A stretch of DNA of 64,000 bases from Verrucomicrobia bacterium IMCC26134 (GTDB lineage: Bacteria > Verrucomicrobiota > Verrucomicrobiia > Opitutales > Opitutaceae), in the NCBI GenBank assembly GCA_000972765.1, contig CP011265.1, forward strand, positions 1,798,001 to 1,862,000, read 5' to 3'. Under the pieces are notes generated by a model. That model searched no databases. It had not been told where the DNA came from and worked only from the letters and a program-made list of their open reading frames with translations. A program made the translations under genes and the position numbers. This document shows, piece by piece, positions 15,662-28,232 of this stretch; position 1 is the first letter of the stretch; the number at the start of each line of letters is the position of its first letter.

Positions 15662-16693
15662 ATGCCGCTCATCGCCAAACTCACCGAGAAACTTCAGCGC
15701 CACCCTAAACGCATCGTTTTCGCCGAGGGCGCAGATCCGCGCATCCTGCAGGCGGCACGCCAATGGGTGACTCGCCGCATGGGCGCACCCATACTTCTAG
15801 GCGATCGGGTCGCCATCAAGGAGGCAGCGGCAAAGCTCGATATCAACTTGCAGGGCATTCGTATCATCGAGCCTGCCCGCAGCGAGGATTTCGACGCCTT
15901 CGTTATCCAGCTCGAGCAACTCCGTCGCATCAAGGGCCTGAAGCTCGCCGAGGCCGGTGCGGCCATGAAAGAAAACGGCTACTTCGCCACCATGATGGTC
16001 GCCACCGGCCAGGCCGACGCCCTTGTATCCGGAGCCACCCTCACTGCATCCAGCGCTCTCCGTCCCATCTTCCAAATCATACCTCGTCTGCCTGGCGTTC
16101 AGCACGCCTCCTCCCTCATGGTGCTGGACTTCGACGAAAAGAAGGTGGGGTCGGATGGATCGCTCTTCCTTACGGATTGCGGCGTCATTCCCGATCCCAC
16201 CGCCGAGCAGCTCTGCGATATTGCCCTCTCCACCGCCAGCATCGCCCGCCACCTCACCAACGAAGTGCCGCGCGTCGCCATGCTGAGCTACTCGACGAAG
16301 AGTCTCTCCAACCAGCCAACGTTGGTCAAAGTCCGCCACGCCACCGAACTGGCTCGAGCGAAGGCGAAGGCCCTCAATTTCGAACTCGAAATCGAGGGTG
16401 AGATCCAGGTGGACGCCGCCCTCGATCTCGCGGTCGCCAAAATAAAAGGGGTCCAGAACTCCGTGGGCGGTCGCGCCAATGTGCTCGTGTTTCCCGATCT
16501 GAATTCGGGCAATATCGCCTTCAAGCTCGTCCAGATTTTAGCCGGTGCAAATACCTTTGGCCAGATCATCACCGGGCTCAGTAAACCCGCAGCCGAGATC
16601 TCCCGTGGCGCCAGTGCACACGATGTCTTTGGCGCGGCTACGATCGTAGGCGTCCAGGCCATCGATCGCCGTCTCCTCCATGGAACAGCGTAA
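15662..16693 (+). CDS. pta: phosphate acetyltransferase, catalytic domain only
   Basis: Interconverts acetyl-CoA and acetyl phosphate. From ATG 15662 (MPLIAKLTEKLQ) the product is 343 residues, the size of the isolated PTA_PTB domain. Motifs seen are RIVFAEGADPRILQAA, VSGATLTASSALRPIFQIIP, MVLDFDEKKVGSDGSLFLTDCGV and VFPDLNSGNIAFKLVQ. The N-terminal BioD-like and DRTGG domains of enterobacterial Pta are missing here and form the separate next gene. A frame opening at 15560 adds a Cys/His-rich stretch unlike the family. No acetate kinase gene is in the window. Confidence 0.92.
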   Translation: MPLIAKLTEKLQRHPKRIVFAEGADPRILQAARQWVTRRMGAPILLGDRVAIKEAAAKLDINLQGIRIIEPARSEDFDAFVIQLEQLRRIKGLKLAEAGAAMKENGYFATMMVATGQADALVSGATLTASSALRPIFQIIPRLPGVQHASSLMVLDFDEKKVGSDGSLFLTDCGVIPDPTAEQLCDIALSTASIARHLTNEVPRVAMLSYSTKSLSNQPTLVKVRHATELARAKAKALNFELEIEGEIQVDAALDLAVAKIKGVQNSVGGRANVLVFPDLNSGNIAFKLVQILAGANTFGQIITGLSKPAAEISRGASAHDVFGAATIVGVQAIDRRLLHGTA

Positions 16694-16723
16694 GTCCCCC
16701 GGCCCCTGCACCTCCAGCGAATC

Positions 16724-17947
16724 ATGCCTTCAGCCTCAATTATCACACCGGATGCGCCCTTGAGCGGCGACTCCTGTCCTGCGGGCGACGCGGCAGCGAC
16801 CAATCCGTTTTCCCTGCCGGCCCTACCGCTCCAAAGCAAACCGAACAACACGGTTACCAAGCGCATCTTCGTCGCCGCCACGCGCATGAACGATGGCAAG
16901 ACAACCACCTGTCTCGGTCTCTACGGCGCACTCCAGTCCATCTTCCCACGCGTTGGCTTCATCAAGCCGGTTGGGCAGCGTTTCGTTGACGTGCAGGGGC
17001 AGAAAATCGACGAGGACTCTGTCCTGCTCGACTCCATCTTCCAGGTGCGCGTGCCGATCGAGAGCATGAGTCCCGTCGCCATTGACGGCACCTTCACCCG
17101 GCGATTTCTCGAAAATCCATCGGAGTTGCTTCCCGCCCTCGAAGATAAGATCTGCCGCTCTTTCGACCGGGTGTCTTGGGAAAAAGATTTCACCATCATC
17201 GAGGGCTCGGGGCACGCCGGCGTGGGCTCGGTTTTCGACTTATCAAACGCCCGTGTCGCCCAACTGCTCAACGCCAAGGTCATTCTCGTCTCCCCAGGCG
17301 GAATCGGACGTCCCATCGACGAGCTTTCGCTCAATAAATCCCTATTCGATAAGTTCGGCGTGGAGGTCATCGGCGCGATTCTCAACAAGGTGGAGAGCGA
17401 CAAAATAGACCTCGTCCGGGAATATGCCGGGCTTGGCCTCGCGCGTCTCGGCATTCCTCTGCTCGGTGTGCTGCCCGTCCAGAAGGCACTCAGCGCGCCC
17501 AACCTTTCTCAAATCGCCGAGGAGATTCAGGGGAAGTGGCTGAACGGTCGTCGTGGCGGCGCCAAACAACGCGTGCAACGTGTGATCGTCGGCGCCATGG
17601 CCGCCAAGGGGATCGTCGACTACCTGCAACCCGGCACACTCATCATCACCCCCGGCGATCGAGATGACATCATCCTCGCCGCGCTTGCCAGCGCCACCCT
17701 CTCCGGCGGCGGCCAGATCGCCGGCCTCGTGGTCACGAATGACGTCCGTCCCCACCCGAAACTCGCCGAGTTGCTCGCCCAGACCGAGATCCCGGTCATC
17801 GCCACTCGCGAGGAAAGCTACGAGGTCACCAGCCGCATCAACCACATGTCGGTCAAGACCCAACCGCAGGACACGGACAAGTTTCCCATCATCAAGAAAC
17901 TCATCGCCGACCACGTGGACCTGGCCAAAATCATCGCCAGTGTTTAA
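16724..17947 (+). CDS. BioD-like/DRTGG-domain protein, stand-alone Pta regulatory half
   Basis: A 407-residue protein resembling the N-terminal part of long Pta enzymes. Residues 45-260 form a BioD-like P-loop fold (FVAATRMNDGKTTTCLGLYGAL, GFIKPVGQRFVD, IIEGSGHAGVGSV). The DRTGG-like domain follows at about 270-390 (VIVGAMAAKGIVDYLQPGTLIITPGDRDDIILAAL). The first 40 residues are low-complexity and probably disordered. It starts 30 bases after the catalytic pta, so the two subunits are probably made together and may associate. In long Pta enzymes this region mediates allosteric control; that role here is inferred. It converges with hrpB. Confidence 0.8.
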   Translation: MPSASIITPDAPLSGDSCPAGDAAATNPFSLPALPLQSKPNNTVTKRIFVAATRMNDGKTTTCLGLYGALQSIFPRVGFIKPVGQRFVDVQGQKIDEDSVLLDSIFQVRVPIESMSPVAIDGTFTRRFLENPSELLPALEDKICRSFDRVSWEKDFTIIEGSGHAGVGSVFDLSNARVAQLLNAKVILVSPGGIGRPIDELSLNKSLFDKFGVEVIGAILNKVESDKIDLVREYAGLGLARLGIPLLGVLPVQKALSAPNLSQIAEEIQGKWLNGRRGGAKQRVQRVIVGAMAAKGIVDYLQPGTLIITPGDRDDIILAALASATLSGGGQIAGLVVTNDVRPHPKLAELLAQTEIPVIATREESYEVTSRINHMSVKTQPQDTDKFPIIKKLIADHVDLAKIIASV

Positions 17948-17965
17948 GCTACCCTCGTGACGGCG

Positions 17966-20533
17966 CTACCGCCACTCATGGCGTGGATAACGACGGCTCA
18001 ACTCTGTTTTTACGGTCGGATACATATCGCGCCAGAAGCTCGTCAAGTCATCCGTCACTTGAATGGGCCTGTAATTCGGGGCCAGCACATGGATCTTCAC
18101 CGGCACCCGTCCGTGGCCGAGGGTAAACCTGCCGTCGATACCGTAGAGCTCTTGTATCCGGGCGGCCATCACGGGAGGACCTTCCTTGGCATATTCCAGC
18201 TTCGCCTTGCGCCCATTGGCCATCGTCAGCCGCTCCGGCAGGTAATCGTCTAGCACGGCAAGTTGCTCCGCCGTCAGCCAGTCGCGCAGCACCTCCATGA
18301 TGGCTGACTTCTCCTTGTCCTTGACCGCCCGGGCGCCGAGTTCGCCGTAGCACACCTGCTCGATCAGCGTCGCCCGATCGGCCTCTGTGAGCGGGTTTAC
18401 CTCAAGCTCAGGGAACCACTCCGCCAACCGGTTCACGCGCGTGATCCATTGCTCAATACTCTCGTCCCAAGCCTCGATCACGATGCGCCCCGCCAGCACT
18501 TCCTTGGTCAACAGTGCCGCGGCTTCGCCATGCGGAGCCTCGTCGCCGCTCACCTTTGCCTCCAGCACGAGGTCGCGAAACCGCCGCTCGCGACGCGTGA
18601 TCACCCGTTTCGACTGCTCGTCATAAACCACGCCGCGCGTTTCGCGATAATCCGCAGGGAACAACTCCTTCAGCCACGGCTCTTCCACCGCCGTTGCCAA
18701 GGTCAGCAGGGTGCTGACCTCGCCGTCGCCGCGCCCGATCTCGCTCACTTCCGCGACGACGAGCAGGGGAGCCTTCTGGATGGCGCTCTCGCGCGCCAGC
18801 ACCCCGCGCCGAGCGTGGACCAGTTCGCAACGCAGCGTGCCGCCATCGAGGCGTTTCGCCACTTGGTCGGAGAAGCCCGCCAGCACACACTTGCGCACCG
18901 CCACGCCGTCGACGCGTTTCTCGGTCACGTCGAGCCCCTCCTTCTCCGCGATTTCCAAAAACGAAGCGAACAAAGGTGCCACCGCCCGCGCACCCTGCGC
19001 ATGGATGCCCAACCGGCGACACGCATCCAGTCCGTAGTTGGCCTGTTCGGCATAGCGCCAGGCACGCATGAGCAGGAAAAAATCACTTTCCGTCTCCTCG
19101 CCCAGCACCTCATCGCGCGCGTCGTCCACCGCCCGGGGCAGCCCGCGCTGTAAAAAGCTCCGCCCCTGTGTGAGTGCGGCCATGAGCGCCACCGGTCGCA
19201 CGCAGCCTCGTGCATCCGCCTCGAGCAGCATGCGGGCATAGCGGGGATGCACCGGAAACCTCAGCATACGCCGTCCGACGTCCGTGATCTTTGCCGGCCC
19301 CCTGACCTCGCTCGCCAGCGCCCCGAGGTCGGTCAGCAACATCTCCGCCCGTTCCAGCGCCTTTGCCTCGGGTTTTTCCAGCCAGGGAAAGCCCGCCACG
19401 TCATCGATACCGCTCGCTTTAAGCGTAAGCACGACCTCGCTCAGATCCAGCCGCTTCACTTCGGGCAACTCCTGCGCCTGACGGCCGGCGTGCTCGCGTT
19501 CGGTCCAAAGTCGGACGCAGCGTCCGGGGGCAGTGCGGCCTGCGCGGCCGGCACGTTGATCGGCGCTCGCCCGCGAAATCTTTTCCACCAGCAGCGTGTT
19601 GATGCCGCGGTTTGGATCGAACTTCGCCTGACGGGCCAACCCTGCATCCACCACGATGGTGACGCCGTCGATGGTAAGCGAGGTTTCAGCCACGTTGGTC
19701 GAGACGATAATCTTGCGCGCACTCGTCCTCGCCACCGCGCGATCCTGCGCCTCGGGAGGCAATTCACCGTGCAAGGGAAGCACTGCGCACCCGTTAAGCA
19801 CCCGGTGCCCACCGAGGGCCTGCAAGGTCCTCCCGATCTCATACGCTCCCGGCATAAACACCAAAAAGTCCCCTTCCGTCTCCGTCGCCAGACGCGCACA
19901 CTCACGTGCCGCGACCTCCCATACCGGCTCATTCTCGAAATTCACCGTCTTTGCGAGATACTCGATCGCCACCGGATAACTTCTCCCTTGCGAGGTCAGT
20001 ATCTCGCAGGGTGCCAGATAATCCGCGAGCACCGCTGCATCGAGCGTCGCCGACATTACCACGATCTTCAAATCGGGTCGCGTCGTGGCCTGAATCTGCA
20101 TCGCCCTCGCCAGCGAGATGTCGCCGTAGAGGTGCCGCTCGTGAAATTCGTCAAAAACCAACGCCGACACCCCGCGCAACCTCGCATCGAACGACATCTG
20201 CCGCAGCAAAATGCCCTCGGTCACAAAGCGCACCCGCGTCTTGGCCGACACCCGCGACTCCAGCCGGATCTGGTAACCCACCTCCTGCCCCAGCTCGCAC
20301 CCGACCTCCTCCGCCACCCTCCTTGCCAACATACGCGCCGCCAGCCGGCGCGGCTGCAGCACCACGACTTCGCCCTCGTTTAAAAATCCATGCTCGCGCA
20401 GCATTTGCGGGATTTGGGTCGATTTGCCGGAGCCGGTAGGAGCCTGCACGACCACTCGTCCGGTCGCTCGCAACGCCTTGACCAGGTCGTTTTCGAGTTC
20501 ATAGATGGGCAGATTGCGCGGTGAAACAGGCAT
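17966..20533 (-). CDS. hrpB: ATP-dependent helicase HrpB
   Basis: DEAH-family RNA helicase of 855 residues. Motif I is QAPTGSGKSTQIPQML (about 35-50), motif II is DEFHERHLYGD as in HrpB, motif III is MSATLDAAVLA, and motif VI is DQRAGRAGRTAPG. A helicase-associated helical region follows. The HrpB-specific C-terminal domain ends with GRVPVKIHVLAPNYRP and SFWRDMYPTVKTELSRRYP. Cellular substrates of bacterial HrpB are poorly known. Its 5' end faces the divergent 37-residue gene with about 180 bases between. Confidence 0.95.
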   Translation of the reverse strand: MPVSPRNLPIYELENDLVKALRATGRVVVQAPTGSGKSTQIPQMLREHGFLNEGEVVVLQPRRLAARMLARRVAEEVGCELGQEVGYQIRLESRVSAKTRVRFVTEGILLRQMSFDARLRGVSALVFDEFHERHLYGDISLARAMQIQATTRPDLKIVVMSATLDAAVLADYLAPCEILTSQGRSYPVAIEYLAKTVNFENEPVWEVAARECARLATETEGDFLVFMPGAYEIGRTLQALGGHRVLNGCAVLPLHGELPPEAQDRAVARTSARKIIVSTNVAETSLTIDGVTIVVDAGLARQAKFDPNRGINTLLVEKISRASADQRAGRAGRTAPGRCVRLWTEREHAGRQAQELPEVKRLDLSEVVLTLKASGIDDVAGFPWLEKPEAKALERAEMLLTDLGALASEVRGPAKITDVGRRMLRFPVHPRYARMLLEADARGCVRPVALMAALTQGRSFLQRGLPRAVDDARDEVLGEETESDFFLLMRAWRYAEQANYGLDACRRLGIHAQGARAVAPLFASFLEIAEKEGLDVTEKRVDGVAVRKCVLAGFSDQVAKRLDGGTLRCELVHARRGVLARESAIQKAPLLVVAEVSEIGRGDGEVSTLLTLATAVEEPWLKELFPADYRETRGVVYDEQSKRVITRRERRFRDLVLEAKVSGDEAPHGEAAALLTKEVLAGRIVIEAWDESIEQWITRVNRLAEWFPELEVNPLTEADRATLIEQVCYGELGARAVKDKEKSAIMEVLRDWLTAEQLAVLDDYLPERLTMANGRKAKLEYAKEGPPVMAARIQELYGIDGRFTLGHGRVPVKIHVLAPNYRPIQVTDDLTSFWRDMYPTVKTELSRRYPRHEWR

Positions 20534-20657
20534 GGTGCGGATGCGCGTTTGTTTTCGTTTACCGTCCGCATGTCCAGCCTGCGCCAGACGCGCCCCTCAC
20601 GCAGACGGGAATCACACCGTTATCTGAGGCCGTTTGGGTTTACTTTCATACCGACGC

Positions 20658-20686
20658 TTGACTCGTCGCACCGCCTCCCCCGTATT
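20658..20686 (+). promoter_or_regulatory. possible sigma70-type promoter for the 37-residue gene
   Basis: A good -35 match TTGACT (20658-20663) is followed after 17 bases by CGTATT, a weak -10 match at 20681-20686. It sits about 27 bases before the ATG of the small basic protein. Proposed from spacing and one good hexamer only. Confidence 0.3.
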
Positions 20687-20712
20687 TCTCGATTTTAACC
20701 AATTCCAATACC

Positions 20713-20826
20713 ATGGGCCAACAATCCAACAAGATCATCAAACGTAAACGCCGCGAAGCCTATCTCAAGCGCCGCAAGGTCGCTGTCGCCCTCGCCGCCA
20801 AGAAGTCCAAGGGCGCCAAGAAGTAA
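20713..20826 (+). CDS. 37-residue highly basic protein, possibly ribosome-associated
   Basis: A short gene encoding MGQQSNKIIKRKRREAYLKR followed by RKVAVALAAKKSKGAKK. Seventeen of 37 residues are Lys or Arg; there is one acidic residue and no Cys. The composition and an Arg/Lys helix followed by an Ala/Lys tail resemble tiny ribosomal proteins. It stands alone with a strong terminator 28 bases after the stop. It lies upstream of rimO, which modifies ribosomal protein S12, and next to an RNA helicase. I have the impression that similar short proteins occur in other Verrucomicrobiota; that is memory, not a search. Nucleic-acid or ribosome binding is inference. Confidence 0.72.
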   Translation: MGQQSNKIIKRKRREAYLKRRKVAVALAAKKSKGAKK

Positions 20827-20853
20827 GCCCACGGCTCTTTCGACTTTTAAAAA

Positions 20854-20882
20854 CCGCGGCTCGAAAAAGCCGCGGTTTTTTC
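20854..20882 (+). terminator. intrinsic terminator after the 37-residue gene
   Basis: Perfect stem CCGCGGCT/AGCCGCGG with an A-rich loop, followed by six T. It isolates the small gene from rimO. Confidence 0.92.
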
Positions 20883-20937
20883 GTATCCCGGCCTCCACGT
20901 TTTCCATCCACGTCCCGTCCTTTTCCCTGTCCCTTTC

Positions 20938-22353
20938 ATGAGCGTCAAAGTCAGTCTCGTTTCCCTCGGTTGCGCCAAAAATCTCGTCGATAGCGAGATC
21001 ATGGTCGGCCATCTTCACAAGGCCGGCATGACCGTGGTTCCCGATCAAGATAAAGCCGACGTCGTCATCGTTAACACCTGTTCCTTTATCGATTCCTCAA
21101 AAGAGGAGTCCATCAACCATATCCTTGAGGCCCACGCCACCCGCGGCATGAAGAAACGCCGCGCCGGCCAGAAGCTGATCGTCGCCGGTTGCATGTCCCA
21201 GCGTTTCTCGAAGGAACTCCCCGAAGCCCTGCCCGAGGTGGATGCCTTCATCGGTCTCGACCAGCTCACCACCGTGGGCGCCATCATCGACGAGCTCACC
21301 GGCACCGTGCGGGCCAAGGGCGAAGCCCCGGTGAATTTTGTCCAAGGTCGCTCCACCTACATACCCGATTACGACACGCCCCGCTTCCGTCTTACCCCCA
21401 AGCATTTCGCCTACATCAAGATCGCCGAGGGCTGCAACCACCCCTGCACCTTTTGCATCATCCCGCAGATCCGCGGACGCCACCGCTCCCGCACCGTCGA
21501 GAGTGTCGTCGCCGAGGCCCGCCAACTGGTCGCCGAAGGGGTGAAAGAGATCAATCTCATCAGCCAGGACACCACCTACTTTGGCATGGACACCTGGGAG
21601 CAACGACCCAACCCGCGCACCCCCGTCGATTCGTCGCGCGGCACCGCCCTGACTACCCTCCTCCGTCAGCTCAACGCCATCGAGGGGAATTTCTGGATAC
21701 GCCTGCTCTACACCCACCCCGCCCATTGGTCCGACGAACTCATCAAGACCATCGCCGAGTGCCCCAAGGTCGCCCGCTACATCGACATTCCCCTTCAACA
21801 CATTAGCGACCACATGCTCGGCCGCATGCAACGCGAGACCAGCGGTGACTACATCCGCGACCTCATCGCCCGCATTCGCGCCGGCATCCCGGGCATCGCG
21901 GTGCGCACCACCTTCATCGTCGGCTTCCCCGGCGAAACCGAGGCGGACGTCGATGAGTTGTGTGAATTCATTCGCGAGGCGAAGTTCGAACGCCTCGGCG
22001 TGTTTCGCTACTCCGCCGAGGACGGCACCCGCGCCGCCAAGATGGACGAGCAACTTACCGTGAAGGTGAAAGAAGCCCGTTGGCACAAGACCATGGCGCT
22101 CCAGCAGGAGATCGCTGCCGAGGTCAGTAAATCCTATGTTGGTAAAACCATTCGCGTGCTTGTCGAAGAACCCGGCGTCGCCCGCGGTGAGGCGGATGCA
22201 CCCGATATCGACGGGCGCGTTTACGTGCCGCGCAGCCTGCCCGTCGGAGAGTTCGCCGACGTCACCATAACCGACTTTCGCGACTATGATTTGCTCGCCT
22301 TGCCCAAGGGCCAGAAGCCCAAGGAATTCAAGGTCGCCAAACAGGCCCAGTAA
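20938..22353 (+). CDS. rimO: ribosomal protein S12 methylthiotransferase RimO
   Basis: Radical-SAM enzyme that adds a methylthio group to the conserved Asp of ribosomal protein S12. The N-terminal UPF0004 domain begins VSLVSLGCAKNLVDSE, the RimO signature, with further Cys in VNTCSF and VAGCMSQ for the second iron-sulfur cluster. The radical-SAM motif is CNHPCTFCIIPQIRGRHRSR. A TRAM domain ends the protein (about 400-465). Length 471 is normal. RimO rather than MiaB is chosen from the LGCAKNLVDSE and IRGRHRSR motifs. Confidence 0.95.
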   Translation: MSVKVSLVSLGCAKNLVDSEIMVGHLHKAGMTVVPDQDKADVVIVNTCSFIDSSKEESINHILEAHATRGMKKRRAGQKLIVAGCMSQRFSKELPEALPEVDAFIGLDQLTTVGAIIDELTGTVRAKGEAPVNFVQGRSTYIPDYDTPRFRLTPKHFAYIKIAEGCNHPCTFCIIPQIRGRHRSRTVESVVAEARQLVAEGVKEINLISQDTTYFGMDTWEQRPNPRTPVDSSRGTALTTLLRQLNAIEGNFWIRLLYTHPAHWSDELIKTIAECPKVARYIDIPLQHISDHMLGRMQRETSGDYIRDLIARIRAGIPGIAVRTTFIVGFPGETEADVDELCEFIREAKFERLGVFRYSAEDGTRAAKMDEQLTVKVKEARWHKTMALQQEIAAEVSKSYVGKTIRVLVEEPGVARGEADAPDIDGRVYVPRSLPVGEFADVTITDFRDYDLLALPKGQKPKEFKVAKQAQ

Positions 22354-22383
22354 AGGTCAGCCCGCATCGCTTAGTTGATGAGT

Positions 22384-22410
22384 CACCCGACACGCCTGAC
22401 GTGGCGGGTG
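22384..22410. other. stem-loop downstream of rimO
   Basis: Eleven-base arms (CACCCGACACG and CGTGGCGGGTG, one mismatch) around a five-base loop. No T run follows, so it is not a classic terminator; it may stabilise the rimO transcript 3' end or act as a weak terminator. Confidence 0.45.
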
Positions 22411-22502
22411 CAAGGGCGAATGCCAGTTACGGCCCAGTGTCTAAAACTCAAAATCGCCTTGGAATTCTGGCTGGTAACGGTGTTAGTTGACCGAATCACA
22501 TC

Positions 22503-24056
22503 TTGACCGAATCCATTTTCATTCACTACCACCTGGACGTCGCGATACTTCTAGCTCTCACGCTCCTAACGCTTTGGCTGAGCCGGATTGCTATTCGTCG
22601 AAAACAGGCGGACGCGAAACTTCCATCCGGGTTATTTGCCTTGCTAGCTTTGATTCTTGTCGCGGGCATTATTTCAAGTGAATATGCGGAAGACGATGTG
22701 CGGGAGCAAATTAAGCAACTCGTTTCCGGACTTTCTCCCACCTTTGCTTACGAACTGCAATCCAAGGGACATGCCAAAATCACCCTGGAAACGTCGCCCG
22801 ACGACAGCACTTACCTAGACATTATCGAGCGCGAAAAGGCATGGTTGAAGCTCAATCCGCATGTCGCCGATATATACACTTATCGCCGGCTGCCCGATGG
22901 GGAAATCGTTTTTATCGCGGACTCCGAAACCGACTATAACCACGACGGTAAATATGAGGGGGATCGAGAACAGCGCACTGCCATAGGTGAGCACTACGAT
23001 AATCCATCCCCGGAAACCCTCAAAGCACTCGATGGTGAGGCAGCTTTCGACACCGAAATAGTAACCGATAAATGGGGCACATGGGTGAGTTTTAATCAAC
23101 CCATGTTCGATCATCAGGGCAGGGTCGAGGCTGTGCTGGGTGTAGATTTCCCGGCATCGAGCTGGCTCAATGCTATCCTGGTAGTGCGCGTTACGAGTCT
23201 TGTAATCTCCTACATTCTGATCCTCACCATTATCTCCAGCACCTCCCTGAATATATTAATGAAGTCGGAGGTCGATGCGCACAAACGAACCGAACTCGCA
23301 CTGCTTGCCGCCAAGAAGGCGGCGGATGCCGCCAGCTTGGCCAAGAGCGTTTTTCTGGCCAATATGAGCCACGAGATACGCACTCCGATGAATAGCATTA
23401 TCGGCTATAGCATTTTGTTGCTCGATAGCCCCTTGGACACCGAGCAACGCGGCTACGTTGTGAACCTATCGAGCTCCGCCGATTCCCTGCTGGTTCTTAT
23501 TAATGACATCCTGGACTTTTCAAAAATAGAGGCCGGTCAAGTTGTTCTGGAGGCCATTCCTTACAGCCTTGATGAAACCATTGATAACCTGAAGCACCTG
23601 CTCACGCCGAACGTTCAGGCCAAAGGGCTTCGTTTTGTCGTGGATATTCAACCGAGAGGCCTCGTGCTCGTGGGCGACCCGCTACGGATCCGGCAGATTC
23701 TGCTCAACCTTCTCTCCAACGCGATTAAGTTCACCCACGCCGGCGAAGTGACGTTTGATGTTTCCTGGATGGCCTGCAAATCAATCCCCCACGAAGGCAG
23801 ACTGCGTTGCACAGTGCGGGATACAGGCATCGGAATCCCCGCGGATAAAATCACCCAGCTTTTCCGCCGATTCTCCCAATTGGACGCTTCGACAACGCGC
23901 CGGTATGGCGGCAGCGGGCTTGGGCTGATGATCTCGCATGAACTCACATCCCTCATGGGCGGCTCCATTCAGGTTTCCAGCACGCCCGGGCAAGGGTCGG
24001 TCTTCACGGTCGATATCCCCGCTAAATTAAACACGGAGTCGCTTCCTTCACTTTAG
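22503..24056 (+). CDS. membrane sensor histidine kinase with extracytoplasmic Cache-like domain
   Basis: A 517-residue kinase. Hydrophobic segments lie at about 12-30, 41-58 and 225-248, with a roughly 165-residue domain between the last two outside the membrane. That domain resembles Cache sensors (DKWGTWVSFNQPMFDHQGRVEAVLGVDF) and carries a DxNxDG loop (Asp144-Asn146-Asp148-Gly149) like calcium-binding loops. HisKA has [10 protein letters not shown] with His290; the ATPase domain has NLLSNAIKF, DTGIGIP and GGSGLGL. There is no receiver and no regulator gene adjacent, so it is an orphan. The start is TTG with poor Shine-Dalgarno sequence; the exact start is uncertain. The ligand is unknown. 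Confidence 0.88.
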   Translation: MTESIFIHYHLDVAILLALTLLTLWLSRIAIRRKQADAKLPSGLFALLALILVAGIISSEYAEDDVREQIKQLVSGLSPTFAYELQSKGHAKITLETSPDDSTYLDIIEREKAWLKLNPHVADIYTYRRLPDGEIVFIADSETDYNHDGKYEGDREQRTAIGEHYDNPSPETLKALDGEAAFDTEIVTDKWGTWVSFNQPMFDHQGRVEAVLGVDFPASSWLNAILVVRVTSLVISYILILTIISSTSLNILMKSEVDAHKRTELALLAAKKAADAASLAKSVFLANMSHEIRTPMNSIIGYSILLLDSPLDTEQRGYVVNLSSSADSLLVLINDILDFSKIEAGQVVLEAIPYSLDETIDNLKHLLTPNVQAKGLRFVVDIQPRGLVLVGDPLRIRQILLNLLSNAIKFTHAGEVTFDVSWMACKSIPHEGRLRCTVRDTGIGIPADKITQLFRRFSQLDASTTRRYGGSGLGLMISHELTSLMGGSIQVSSTPGQGSVFTVDIPAKLNTESLPSL

Positions 24057-24209
24057 TTTTTTTAAAACGCAGTCGCGTCGCTCAAAACGCTCCTTTTACC
24101 CGTGGACCCGGTCTCAACCCTTCACACGGAGTCGGGGCATTTTCTGGCTCGCCGCGCTTGGTGTTAAGCGACGAAATCTATTTTCGCCTGTCTCTACCTT
24201 CCTTTCATC

Positions 24210-25577
24210 ATGTCCGCCCCGTCGCCGCTGCCCGCAACGCTTGCCCTAGTCCCCTTCAGAAAACCCGTGACCGGAGTGGTCGAGATCCCAGGCTCCAAGA
24301 GTCTGACCAATAGAGCATTGCTGCTCGCCGCGCTTTGCGACCGCCCCGTTACCTTGACCGGCGCGCTCTTCAGCGACGACACCCGTCTCATGGCCGAGGC
24401 CCTGCGCAAACTTGGGCTTACCGTGCATGCCAGCGAAGATACGCACAGGATCGAGGTTGCCGGCCAATCCAGTATCTTCAAATCCACCGCGCCCGTGGAT
24501 ATTTTTGTCGGCCTCGCTGGCACCGCCGCACGGTTCCTCACCGCACTCTGCGCCGCCGCACCACGCGGCGTCTATCGCATCCAAGGCACCGAACGCATGA
24601 ACCAGCGTCCGATGAAAGGATTGATCGACGCCCTCCGCGCCCTCGGCGCTGATATACGCTGCACCAGCGTAGAGGGCTTTTTCCCGATCGAGATCCACGC
24701 TCGCGGACTGCGAGGCGGTCCTGTTGCGATAGATGCCACGGAAAGCAGTCAGATGCTGTCGGCCCTCCTCATGATCGCGCCTTTAGCCGATCATCCCGTC
24801 GAGGTCACTGCCGTCGGCGGTGTGCGCTGGCCCTTTGTCAATATGACCGCGCTCATGATGCAGGCCTTCCAGCCTGATCTGGAGAAAAACGTCGAACGCA
24901 TCGATGACACCCGCTTCCGCATCAAAAAAGGCACCTCGCCGGTCTACTCCGCCAAGGGCATCCACGCCATCGAGCCAGACGCCACCGCCGCCAGTTACTT
25001 CGCCGCTTTGCCGCTCGTCGTCGGCGGACGGACCAAGCTGGCCCACCTTCACCTCGGCCTCCAGGGAGATACCGCCTTCCTGGACGTGCTCCGCCGGGTT
25101 GGCGCGGTCGTCGAACCCGGTCCCGGCGGCTTTGAGGTCTCCTACGCCAAAGGATCTGCTCGCGCCGGTGTTACGGAAAATTTCAATGAGTTCTCCGACA
25201 CCTTCCTCACCCTTGCCGCTATCGCTCCGCTCCTCTCCGGCCCGACTCGCATCACTGGCATAGCCCACTCGCGCAAACAGGAGACCGACCGCGTCGCCGG
25301 TATGGTCCGCGAACTCCGCAAATTAGGCCAGGAGGTCGATGAACACGCCGATGGCGATGGCCTGACCATTTCGCCCCGTCCGCTTAAATCGGGCGTGGTC
25401 ATCGAAACCTACCACGACCACCGTTTCGCCATGAGTTTTGCTATTCTCGGTTGCCACGATCTCAACGGAGACGGCTCCGCCTGGCTCAGCCTCGACAACC
25501 CCGCCTGCTGCGCGAAAACCTTTCCCCACTTTTTTGATTTGCTCGCCTCGCTCCGTCTAAAATCCTCCGCCCCCTGA
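24210..25577 (+). CDS. aroA: 3-phosphoshikimate 1-carboxyvinyltransferase (EPSP synthase)
   Basis: Joins shikimate-3-phosphate and phosphoenolpyruvate in aromatic amino-acid synthesis. Motifs are VEIPGSKSLTNRALLLAAL (phosphate and S3P binding), VGLAGTAARFLTAL, GTERMNQRPMKGLIDALRALG and HDHRFAMSFAILG. Length 455 is typical. The stop overlaps the cmk start by one base (TGATG), so translation is coupled. About 150 bases separate it from the kinase upstream, with no clear element in that gap. Confidence 0.95.
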   Translation: MSAPSPLPATLALVPFRKPVTGVVEIPGSKSLTNRALLLAALCDRPVTLTGALFSDDTRLMAEALRKLGLTVHASEDTHRIEVAGQSSIFKSTAPVDIFVGLAGTAARFLTALCAAAPRGVYRIQGTERMNQRPMKGLIDALRALGADIRCTSVEGFFPIEIHARGLRGGPVAIDATESSQMLSALLMIAPLADHPVEVTAVGGVRWPFVNMTALMMQAFQPDLEKNVERIDDTRFRIKKGTSPVYSAKGIHAIEPDATAASYFAALPLVVGGRTKLAHLHLGLQGDTAFLDVLRRVGAVVEPGPGGFEVSYAKGSARAGVTENFNEFSDTFLTLAAIAPLLSGPTRITGIAHSRKQETDRVAGMVRELRKLGQEVDEHADGDGLTISPRPLKSGVVIETYHDHRFAMSFAILGCHDLNGDGSAWLSLDNPACCAKTFPHFFDLLASLRLKSSAP

Positions 25578-26248
25578 TGGCCTCCAACCCTTTTCTCATC
25601 ATCGCCATCGACGGCGGCGCCGCCGCCGGTAAATCGACCACCGCCCGCGCCCTCAGCGAGCGCTTTCACTTTCTGCACGTTGACACCGGCTCCTACTATC
25701 GCGCGCTCACCGCCGAGTTGCTCCGTGCCGGCCTGGCCCCCGCCGATTTACCCGCGGTCGAGGCTTCCCTCGCCCATCTCGCCCTCGGGACCCGGGTCGA
25801 AGGCCGCCGAGCCCTCATGGAGGTCGGCGGACGCGTCGTTCCCGAACCCGAGTTGCGCAGCCCCGCCGTCAACGCCCTCGTCTCTCACTTCGCCGCCCTG
25901 CCCTCCGTGCGTGCCGCGTTGCTGGCCTACCAACGCGAACAGGCCGGCGTCGCCCGCCGGCATGGTTTTTCCGGTCTCGTGATGGAAGGTCGTGACATTG
26001 GCACCATTATCTTTCCCGACGCGGACTTCCGGTTTTTTCTGCACGCCGACCCCGCCGAGCGCGCCCGCCGCCGTGCCGCCGAAGGTCAGCAGGACTCCAT
26101 TGCGGAGCGAGACCGCCTGGATAGCTCGCGTAAATCCGCCCCGCTCGTCTGTCCCGTCGGCGCGATCGACATCGATTCTACCTTTCTCGACTTGGAAACC
26201 GTGGTTGAAACCGTCGCGGCGCCCATCGCCGCACGTCTGGCCGGTTGA
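25577..26248 (+). CDS. cmk: cytidylate kinase
   Basis: Phosphorylates CMP and dCMP with ATP. The P-loop is IDGGAAAGKSTTARAL at residues 10-25; next come HVDTGSYYRALT and VMEGRDIGTIIFPDADFRFFL, all family hallmarks. The lid-like segment is ARRRAAEGQQ. At 223 residues it is of normal size. It is translationally coupled to aroA and lies 15 bases before plsC. The aroA-cmk pairing is common in bacteria. Confidence 0.95.
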   Translation: MASNPFLIIAIDGGAAAGKSTTARALSERFHFLHVDTGSYYRALTAELLRAGLAPADLPAVEASLAHLALGTRVEGRRALMEVGGRVVPEPELRSPAVNALVSHFAALPSVRAALLAYQREQAGVARRHGFSGLVMEGRDIGTIIFPDADFRFFLHADPAERARRRAAEGQQDSIAERDRLDSSRKSAPLVCPVGAIDIDSTFLDLETVVETVAAPIAARLAG

Positions 26249-26263
26249 GTCAGACCCGCCCGC

Positions 26264-26920
26264 ATGAGCCGATTCGATCAAGTTGAGATGGAGCCCTTGT
26301 ATGGGCTGAGTAACTATATCATCAACGTCGCCCACGACATGTTTTTCCGCGGCGAAGTCGTCGGCTTGGAAAACATCCCGGCCTGCGGCGCCTTCCTCGT
26401 CGCCGCCAACCACGCCAGCCACCTTGACCCCCCTTTCATCGGCGCTCGCATACAACGCCAGATGGCGTTTTTTGCCCGCAAGACACTCTGGAAACCGGGC
26501 ATGCCCTCGCGCTGGCTCGACCGCGTCGGTGCGATTCCGGTGGATCGTGACGGCGGTTCCGACTTGAAAGCCATCAAGCGCGTGCTCGCCACTCTCGCCG
26601 AGGGAAAGGCGCTCGTGCTCTTCCCTGAAGGCACGCGTTCGTCCAACGGTGTTTTGCAACCCGCCAAGTCCGGAGTGGGCCTGATTGCGTGCAAAACCGG
26701 CGTGCCTGTTATACCCGTGCGTATCTTCAACTCCCATATCGCCTTCGGTCGCGGCGGCGCGGTCGCCCTAGGCACACCGGTGCACATTGTTTACGGTGCC
26801 CCGATCCCCGCCTCGGTTTATGACGTCCCCGCCGACGGCAAGGAGCGCTACCAACGCGCCAGTGAACGGATCATGGCCGGTATCGCCGCTCTGTCACTTC
26901 CTCCCATGCCGGTGATATGA
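26264..26920 (+). CDS. plsC: 1-acyl-sn-glycerol-3-phosphate acyltransferase
   Basis: Acylates lysophosphatidic acid to phosphatidic acid at the inner membrane. The catalytic HX4D motif is AANHASHLDPP; the substrate motif FPEGTRSSNG follows, with the third block GVPVIPVRIFNS. 218 residues, close to the small PlsC proteins. It is the last gene of the aroA-cmk-plsC group and is followed by a two-way terminator. Confidence 0.92.
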   Translation: MSRFDQVEMEPLYGLSNYIINVAHDMFFRGEVVGLENIPACGAFLVAANHASHLDPPFIGARIQRQMAFFARKTLWKPGMPSRWLDRVGAIPVDRDGGSDLKAIKRVLATLAEGKALVLFPEGTRSSNGVLQPAKSGVGLIACKTGVPVIPVRIFNSHIAFGRGGAVALGTPVHIVYGAPIPASVYDVPADGKERYQRASERIMAGIAALSLPPMPVI

Positions 26921-26923
26921 GAC

Positions 26924-26955
26924 AAAAAAGCCCCCGTGCTAACGGGGGCTTTAAA
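26924..26955. terminator. bidirectional terminator between plsC and tRNA-Thr
   Basis: Stem GCCCCCGT/ACGGGGGC with a four-base loop. Read on the minus strand it is followed by six T, so it suits the tRNA transcript best; read on the plus strand it is followed by TTTAAAA after plsC. Confidence 0.85.
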
Positions 26956-26956
26956 A

Positions 26957-27032
26957 TGGAGCCGAGCATCGGGCTCGAACCGACGACCTATGCTTTACGA
27001 AAGCATTGCTCTACCAACTGAGCTAGCTCGGC
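26957..27032 (-). tRNA. tRNA-Thr (anticodon CGT)
   Basis: Cloverleaf on the minus strand: acceptor GCCGAGC/GCTCGGC, D arm GCTC...GAGC, anticodon stem ATGCT/AGCAT around TTCGTAA with anticodon CGT, T loop TTCGAGC and an encoded CCA end. Reads ACG codons. 76 bases. Confidence 0.95.
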
Positions 27033-27098
27033 CTAAACGAGGCTTGGAACAAACTCGCCCGCGCCGGTGGAGCAAGCTTCTTTTCCCCAAAACCTCCC

Positions 27099-28232
27099 AT
27101 GCCATCTCTCGCTACCGACCTTTTTGACTACATCTTGCCGCCGCGACTCATCGCGCAAAGCCCGGCTGAACGACGTGACGCCTCCCGCCTGCTCATCGTC
27201 CACCGCGACACTCATCGTATCGAACACCGCCTATTTTCCGATATCGGCGAATATTTGCGACCGGGCGACACTCTCTTCCGCAACAATGCAGCCGTCCTGC
27301 CCGCCCGTCTGCTTGCCCAACGCCCCACGGGCGGTGCCGTCGAGTGCCTCCTGCTCCGTCCCGCTCCCGATGGAGAGACGTGGTGGTGCTTGATTCGTCC
27401 GGGTAAAAAGCTCCCGGTGGGTGCCACCTTCGGCATCCACGGCGCTTTCACCGGAACCGTGCTCGAAAAGGACGCGGAGGGGGCCGCCCGCATCGCATTT
27501 GCCTGCCAGCCCGGGCCCGATGGCACTCCCTCAAGCATCACCTCCGTCGCCAACCGGCTCGGAGAAGTCCCGCTGCCTCCCTACATCGAACGCCAACACA
27601 CCGCGGAGGAACGCCGTGCCGATCTGGAGCGCTATCAAACCGTTTACGCCGACCACAATCGACAGGTCGCGGCCGCCGCGCCCACTGCCGGGCTCCATTT
27701 CACACCGGAATTACTCGCCGCTCTGGCCTTGCAAGGTGTCCGCACCGCCGACCTTACCCTGCATGTGGGGCTCGGCACGTTTAAGCCTATCGCCACCGAT
27801 ACCATCGAGGCGCACGCCATCCATCGCGAGATCTACGAGGTGCCGCCCGCCACCCAATCAGCCCTGCTCGCCCCCTGCCTGGGCACTCGTCGTATCGCAG
27901 TGGGCACGACCAGTGTGCGATCCTTGGAAGACTTCTGGCAAAAACATCACGCCTCTACCCAGTCGTCGTCTTCGCCTGTCACTCCAACTGATCTCCTCCG
28001 CACCCATGTTAGCGAATCGGCGATTTATCTTTACCCGCCGCATCCGTTTCCGGCTCTGGACGGGCTGATCACAAACTTCCATCAGCCTCGTTCCACCTTG
28101 CTCTGCCTGGTCAGCGCCTTCCTTACCCCCGGATCGACCGAAGGCATCGTCTGGCTGCGCGAGATTTACGCCGAAGCCATCGCCCGCGAGTATCGTTTCT
28201 TCAGCTACGGCGATGCGATGCTCATTGTGTGA
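27099..28232 (+). CDS. queA: S-adenosylmethionine:tRNA ribosyltransferase-isomerase
   Basis: Transfers the ribosyl part of SAM to 7-aminomethyl-7-deazaguanine in tRNA, making epoxyqueuosine. Family motifs are YILPPRLIAQSPAERRDASRLL near the start, AAPTAGLHFTPELL, LHVGLGTFKPI and ITNFHQPRSTLLCLVSAFL. Length 377 is typical. It lies divergently from tRNA-Thr, 66 bases away. No other queuosine gene is in the window. Confidence 0.95.
   Translation: MPSLATDLFDYILPPRLIAQSPAERRDASRLLIVHRDTHRIEHRLFSDIGEYLRPGDTLFRNNAAVLPARLLAQRPTGGAVECLLLRPAPDGETWWCLIRPGKKLPVGATFGIHGAFTGTVLEKDAEGAARIAFACQPGPDGTPSSITSVANRLGEVPLPPYIERQHTAEERRADLERYQTVYADHNRQVAAAAPTAGLHFTPELLAALALQGVRTADLTLHVGLGTFKPIATDTIEAHAIHREIYEVPPATQSALLAPCLGTRRIAVGTTSVRSLEDFWQKHHASTQSSSSPVTPTDLLRTHVSESAIYLYPPHPFPALDGLITNFHQPRSTLLCLVSAFLTPGSTEGIVWLREIYAEAIAREYRFFSYGDAMLIV

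Follow-up and report, generated by a model that had tools for sequence, protein, structure and literature searches.

A phylum-wide family of short basic proteins in Verrucomicrobiota, encoded beside rimO in Verrucomicrobia bacterium IMCC26134, as a candidate ribosomal protein

Between the genes for a helicase and for a uS12 methylthiotransferase of Verrucomicrobia bacterium IMCC26134 lies an open reading frame of only 37 residues, which raises the question of whether so short a frame is a gene at all and, if it is, what kind of protein it encodes. The window analysed here is a stretch of 64,000 nucleotides (contig CP011265.1, positions 1,798,001 to 1,862,000), to which the coordinates of the features below refer. 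The frame (20713..20826, forward strand; start ATG, stop TAA) encodes MGQQSNKIIKRKRREAYLKRRKVAVALAAKKSKGAKK and is alone in a gap of 404 bases, flanked upstream by the divergent gene hrpB for an ATP-dependent helicase (17966..20533, reverse strand; TIGR01970, 613 bits) and downstream by rimO (20938..22353, forward strand), the product of which matches TIGR01125 with 474 bits against a cut-off of 357. RimO modifies uS12. A preliminary description of this DNA had proposed a stand-alone Lys/Arg-rich gene of 37 residues beside rimO, and the frame does translate as claimed, with the neighbour confirmed as RimO by TIGR01125. The same description called nearly half of the residues basic, which is slightly overstated for a protein that is nevertheless strongly basic: it has 10 lysines, 5 arginines and one acidic residue (K/R 15/37, 41%), a pI of 11.9 and a charge of about +13.5 at pH 7.

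Composition sets the frame apart from its surroundings, as it is the only one among the 368 window frames of 30-60 residues with at least 40% K+R, and a chance control of 30 first-order Markov sequences matched to it in composition yielded a mean of 0.27 such frames and a maximum of 2. In all 24 loci recovered in the first search the ATG is at the same position and the core is conserved, while the tail varies. For codons 2-23, compared in 23 of these loci (253 pairs, L014 excluded), pN is 0.168 and pS 0.552, giving a pN/pS of about 0.3, and pN is lower than pS in 250 of the 253 pairs; the other two forward frames have ratios of 1.2 and 1.0 and contain 18 and 12 stops. Conservation and pN/pS thus rule out a chance frame, and 20713-20826 is a genuine conserved coding gene, under purifying selection in its core and free to vary in its tail. 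No RNA gene was detected in the hrpB-rimO gap by ARAGORN or Rfam, and an RNA element was likewise discarded, the Rfam search of 16000-28000 giving one tRNA only. A Shine-Dalgarno-like motif was seen in none of the 24 first-search loci within the stretch scored, and in 52 of 124 across all loci.

The gene also has transcription signals of its own. A -35-like element, TTGACT (20658..20663, forward strand), lies about 50 nt 5' of the ATG, and CTTGACT is found upstream in 23 of the 24 first-search loci, the one locus lacking it (L014) coming from another family. The distance from TTGAC to the ATG is -50 to -55 in 22 of these loci and -65 in L013, with none in L014, and when the window is aligned to two close relatives, the longest identical upstream block is CGCTTGACTC. 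As a bare word, CTTGACTC occurs in the window at chance level (1 found versus 1.6 expected), and its weight therefore derives from its conservation across loci and not from its rarity. On the 3' side, a hairpin at 20849..20880 (forward strand) combines a perfect 13-bp stem with an A-run before and a T-run after it, and has a local folding energy of -21.3 kcal/mol; a strict search for a hairpin followed by a T-run gave a match in 14 of the 24 loci. This hairpin is an intrinsic terminator, probably a bidirectional one, between the gene and rimO. A stock motif scanner reported neither the TTGACT promoter nor the 20849-20880 terminator. Both had been put forward in the preliminary description, and both are upheld, because CTTGACT is conserved and the 13-bp stem is present 3' of the stop.

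How far does this gene extend beyond the organism in which it was noticed? The preliminary description had held that a lack of homologues would speak against its reading, and had pointed to Verrucomicrobiota and Chlamydiota as the groups to search. A plain-sequence search recovered homologues in 24 of 38 genomes, the organism's own included. At E ≤ 0.1, a 19-sequence profile gave matches within the order in 69 of 177 genomes and within the phylum in 209 of 288. A 66-sequence profile at E ≤ 0.01 was positive in 291 of 383 phylum genomes (completeness filter 90), or in 280 of 369 when the count is confined to those with a completeness of 90% or more and a contamination of 5% or less. Every positive row listed has a single match, except for G274 and G285 with two each. 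Named genomes scanned for MG[QK]Qx[NS]K[VI][IEQ]K gave 490 pattern matches, including 312 confirmed relatives; the best 80 of these 312 all belong to Verrucomicrobia or Lentisphaerae by record title, and no Chlamydiota homologue is present among these 80. A lack of homologues is thus decisively contradicted. The family is phylum-wide and present in most of the genomes sampled, the phylum being, as judged by the named matches, Verrucomicrobiota with Lentisphaeria. One member, from a record titled Akkermansia muciniphila (L152), closely resembles the one in L178, the title of which reads Chthoniobacteraceae, and the bin of the former may be mislabelled. A mobile-element origin was set aside when a tblastn search with one divergent member (L079/L105) gave no match in plasmids and phages, although this negative is weak because of the low-complexity filter of BLAST. 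The family is not named in the titles or abstract openings found in the PMC open-access literature; small-protein catalogues such as PMC11364881 may contain it as anonymous clusters.

Alignment of the members reveals a conserved core, MGQQ-NK--KRxRRxAYLKRKK, followed by a variable tail. Since 80 loci had been fetched by the N-terminal pattern, counts over all 80 cores would be inflated, and we therefore used the 34 distinct cores of the 44 loci found by sequence and profile searches. Among these, Q4, K10 and R14 are present in 34/34, R20 in 33, K22 in 32, G2 and K7 in 31 each, R13 in 30 and Y17 in 29. The proteins are mostly small, with a median length of 35 residues and 81 of 100 distinct proteins no longer than 45; these 100 come from the 122 members without unread residues in a set of 124 loci, which is uneven in that Lentisphaeria and Prosthecobacter-like genomes are over-represented. 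In some lineages the tails are Lys/Ala/Pro-rich or acidic, and several of the loci L127, L143-L150, L175 and L181 fuse the core to long repetitive tails of these kinds that vary between species.

The family is not universal in the phylum. About a quarter of the good-quality genomes have no match, in places by whole clades within the window's own order. Families of that order such as f11, f22, f3 and f4 lack it in nearly complete genomes, as do some genomes of single genera in otherwise positive families, among them f1, f20 and f21, of which f1 is presumably the Opitutaceae and its order the Opitutales. Other families of the order provide a means of distinguishing real loss from oversight, because there the gene precedes a small conserved gene, cluster 11, which is followed by an OGG-type glycosylase gene. 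Cluster 11 encodes about 155 residues, has no Pfam match in the copy tested (L014), and lies between the small gene and the glycosylase gene in L014, L086, L087, L088, L127, L139, L154 and L174; the pair persists in genomes that have lost the small gene. Among 19 negative genomes, the glycosylase was located in 10 and cluster 11 adjoined it in 8, and in all 8 of these, where synteny is readable, no family ORF is present at the locus. The same screen printed four short K/R-rich frames in L190 and L194, none of which has the core, and it was applied as well to the glycosylase loci L191 and L195, which have no cluster 11 match. In these 8 genomes, then, the gene is not overlooked and its loss is real, because the synteny can be read and the ORF is absent, whereas the other negatives rest on the profile search. 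It follows from the 8 syntenic loci that the gene is dispensable.

Searches against known families gave little to build on. Neither the 37-residue protein nor 25 diverse members have a credible match among Pfam or NCBIfam models, and no PDB sequence is matched credibly by the single sequence or by profiles. The RNase P protein RnpA was rejected, since NF002513, which has a cut-off of 240 bits, scored 15.2 bits (E 0.02) and matched 1 of the 25 members; CBFB_NFYA, touched by 3 of the 25 with a best E of 0.01, is not credible; and Synaptobrevin (E 0.087), L32 (0.78), RPAP3 (2.8 and 3.1) and LCMT2 (4.8) were set aside as weak. By these comparisons the family has no model in the Pfam and NCBIfam releases searched.

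The neighbouring genes offer a first indication of function, and here the clades differ. The hrpB gene is a neighbour in the window's own locus only, as judged by tblastn over the 24 first-search loci, and is not conserved in this position. RimO follows in the same orientation in 22 of the 24 and was not found within 1.3-1.5 kb in L008 and L014. Over the whole set it follows in 23 of 124 loci, namely the 22 of the first search, which come from near relatives, and a further one whose title reads Opitutae; some loci have short flanks, 7 of the 124 having fewer than 600 bases downstream. Upstream, a homologue of Rsm22 occurs in 8 of the 124 (PF09243, E 1.6e-16 in L005, the copy tested, which no NCBIfam model matches). 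This Rsm22/METTL17 homologue lies 60-80 bases before the small gene in L005, L006, L007, L009, L010, L015, L016 and L121, the match in L010 ending about 700 away, and in some near relatives Rsm22 upstream and RimO downstream thus make up a small-subunit mini-cluster. Rsm22/METTL17 is described as an assembly factor of the mitochondrial small subunit, positioned between head and body, where it prevents the settling of h31, a helix of the decoding centre (PMC9892005). Other neighbours are a transglutaminase-like protein on the opposite strand (30 loci), ispF (18), the OGG-type glycosylase (8), a YacP-type NYN nuclease (5) and leuS (5, two of them on the same contig). The YacP-type nuclease lies 3' of the gene in L071, L072, L073, L085 and L181, and in L072 the small gene's stop codon directly adjoins the start of the nuclease gene. 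LpxA and MutL are also found outside the window's family, where most neighbours (IspF, the transglutaminase-like protein, the glycosylase, LpxA and MutL) have no tie to translation. With RimO in 23 of 124 loci and differing neighbours in other clades, the small-subunit context is therefore a feature of the window's own family only.

Two further lines of evidence concern the protein itself. Its gene has a codon log-ratio of 4.4 over the 36 codons on which this test rests, a value reached by 23% of the segments from the ribosomal region but by 1% of ordinary ones; the bS22-like gene of the same genome has 3.5. The reference comprised 22 genes of the str-S10-spc-alpha region, chosen by eye with fusA included, versus 34 long window ORFs; the identities of uS5, uL14 and uS7 in that region were confirmed, and the other ribosomal gene names (L186) are our own presumed assignments. 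AlphaFold2, run with 40 sequences, predicts one helix over residues 7-36 (mean pLDDT 86.8, pTM 0.47), and a single predicted helix carries little information on function.

Taken together, the basic helix, the fixed side chains, the mostly single copy, the ribosomal-like codons and the small-subunit neighbours in its own family make a constitutive ribosomal protein, or a stoichiometric ribosome-bound peptide of the bS22, bTHX or bL37 kind, the best reading, which we favour with modest confidence. On this proposal a short free N-terminus with fixed residues, MGQQxNK, would lead into one basic helix, KRxRRxAYLKRKK, laid into an rRNA pocket, and the variable tail would follow after the helix. The small subunit would be the favoured position because RimO and Rsm22 adjoin the gene in the window's own family. 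We infer the binding to rRNA, the location on the ribosome and the small rather than the large subunit. The suggestion of the preliminary description, a lineage-specific ribosomal protein or RNA chaperone, is partly supported: the first of these agrees with the codon usage, predicted helix, charge, core and own-family neighbours, but the adjacency to rimO on which the suggestion leaned is not general. Counting against a ribosomal protein are the absence of the gene by clades, the mostly non-translational neighbours outside the window's family, and the Lys/Ala/Pro-rich tails of Prosthecobacter-like genomes, which resemble DNA-binding tails.

The first of these points would be better accommodated if the peptide were a transient ribosome-assembly factor or RNA chaperone, one that aids the folding of 16S rRNA beside Rsm22 and RimO and then leaves: the loss by whole clades is more in keeping with an accessory factor than with a core protein, and the own-family neighbours include RimO, which modifies the small subunit, and in 8 loci the Rsm22 homologue, related to an assembly factor. 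We consider such a role possible but unlikely, in that the ribosomal-protein-like codon usage suggests high expression, side chains fixed across the phylum suit a static pocket, and the neighbours differ in other clades.

The tails, for instance in L143 and L175, and the high pI bring to mind a nucleoid-associated, histone H1-like protein that binds DNA. The other small basic protein of PVC bacteria is said to behave in this manner, Lagkouvardos and colleagues having reportedly found in 2014 that it binds both DNA and RNA unspecifically. A DNA-binding role of this sort is improbable for the present family, in which non-basic core residues (Q4, G2 and Y17) are fixed as well, the 81 of 100 distinct members that are no longer than 45 residues have no Lys/Ala/Pro tail, and no credible likeness to a DNA-binding family emerged, the CBFB_NFYA matches included.

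Still less probable is a peptide of ribosome hibernation or dormancy that blocks the mRNA/tRNA channel. This notion arises from the top PDB match of a 25-sequence profile, CCDC124 (two sequences, with E 0.049 and 0.56; a methyltransferase ranks third at E 4.8), and CCDC124 is a ribosome-bound dormancy factor. The match falls to E 0.52 with a larger profile, it involves a low-complexity basic helix, and the codon usage of the small gene resembles that of ribosomal genes.

Identity with the PVC signature protein CT421.2, of which we take TIGR04137 to be the model, or with bS22 (COX24_C) can be dismissed as highly improbable, for although all three proteins are small, basic and present in these bacteria, both of the others have separate loci in this genome, TIGR04137 at C1:245749 (84 bits, the model having no match to the 37-residue ORF) and COX24_C at C1:1507054 (25.5 bits, over the cut-off).

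The comparison with these proteins is instructive in its own right. Like bS22, the new protein is a basic, helical protein of about 30 residues from a stand-alone gene that annotation easily overlooks, but it belongs to another sequence family. Neither it nor any of the 25 members matches PF08213 at E ≤ 1, and a profile comparison with a bS22-like alignment, a thin profile of two sequences, gave a probability of 3%. The COX24_C/bS22-like protein of the organism, 33 residues long and encoded outside the window (G000, C1:1507054-1507140, L093), weakly matches two PDB chains: 9i5v_10 (E 0.0087) is an AURKAIP1/COX24 domain protein, and 7jil_5 (E 0.026) has the annotation S22 or L38. COX24_C matches 207 of 288 phylum genomes at E ≤ 0.01, 131 of them over the cut-off, and its misses include many genomes of genus g87 (family f29). 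It co-occurs with the new family in many genomes, and in the few inspected by eye (G017, G214, G352) the loci are separate. In Borrelia, bS22 is described as an unannotated protein recognised through cryo-EM density, which binds an rRNA pocket of h2, h27, h44 and h45 and has similar counterparts in eL41 and mS38 (PMC10618245). The PVC signature protein shares with the new family its small size, its occurrence in PVC bacteria and a function that is not known, but is described as about 53 residues or longer and as reported also from Chlamydiae, Lentisphaerae and Planctomycetes (PMC3444138). TIGR04137 was over its cut-off in 19 of 19 genomes searched, the organism's own included.

A likeness to bTHX (PF17070) can also be drawn, this being a very short basic small-subunit protein starting with MG, as the Thermus sequence does, whereas the 37-residue ORF has no match to the Thx model and bTHX was over the cut-off in 0 of 193 phylum genomes, the organism's own included, with two sub-threshold matches. 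Mycobacterial bL37, a tiny helical ribosomal protein described as lying where Borrelia uL30 has its N-terminal extension (PMC10618245), is alike in size and helicity and differs in that the PDB searches gave no sequence match between the two. We found no uL30 in 96 phylum genomes, 12 of 14 control genomes being positive, and in the organism's own genome about 80 bases separate uS5 from the apparent uL15 (L186:6233-6314), leaving no room for it. A replacement of bS22, bS21, bTHX or uL30 by the new protein was rejected for want of any anticorrelation, as COX24_C co-occurs with it, bS21 is present in 191 of 193 phylum genomes, bTHX is over the cut-off in none of 193 and uL30 was found in none of 96. 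The negative genomes of family f11 also have no uL30, and the 37-residue protein is therefore no simple replacement of it.

The best PDB match of the organism's uS7, 183 bits over 148 residues, suggests, though it does not prove, that the ribosomes solved so far include none from a near relative. Short basic ribosomal proteins are described as having been recognised when ribosomes of new lineages were solved, Borrelia bS22 being one example (PMC10618245). The present proteins add a coding family that the Pfam and NCBIfam releases used do not contain, and the family offers a defined sequence to seek in a ribosome map of the phylum, while the clades of the same order without the gene constitute a natural experiment. 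In its full form our proposal, which we advance tentatively and with the balance inclining slightly to doubt, is that of a ribosomal protein specific to the phylum and not yet described, a single basic helix with MGQQxNK as its anchor, basal in the phylum and secondarily lost in some clades of the window's order. If this is true, the ribosomes of the phylum would have a composition of their own, with the 37-residue protein and bS22, and without uL30 and bTHX.
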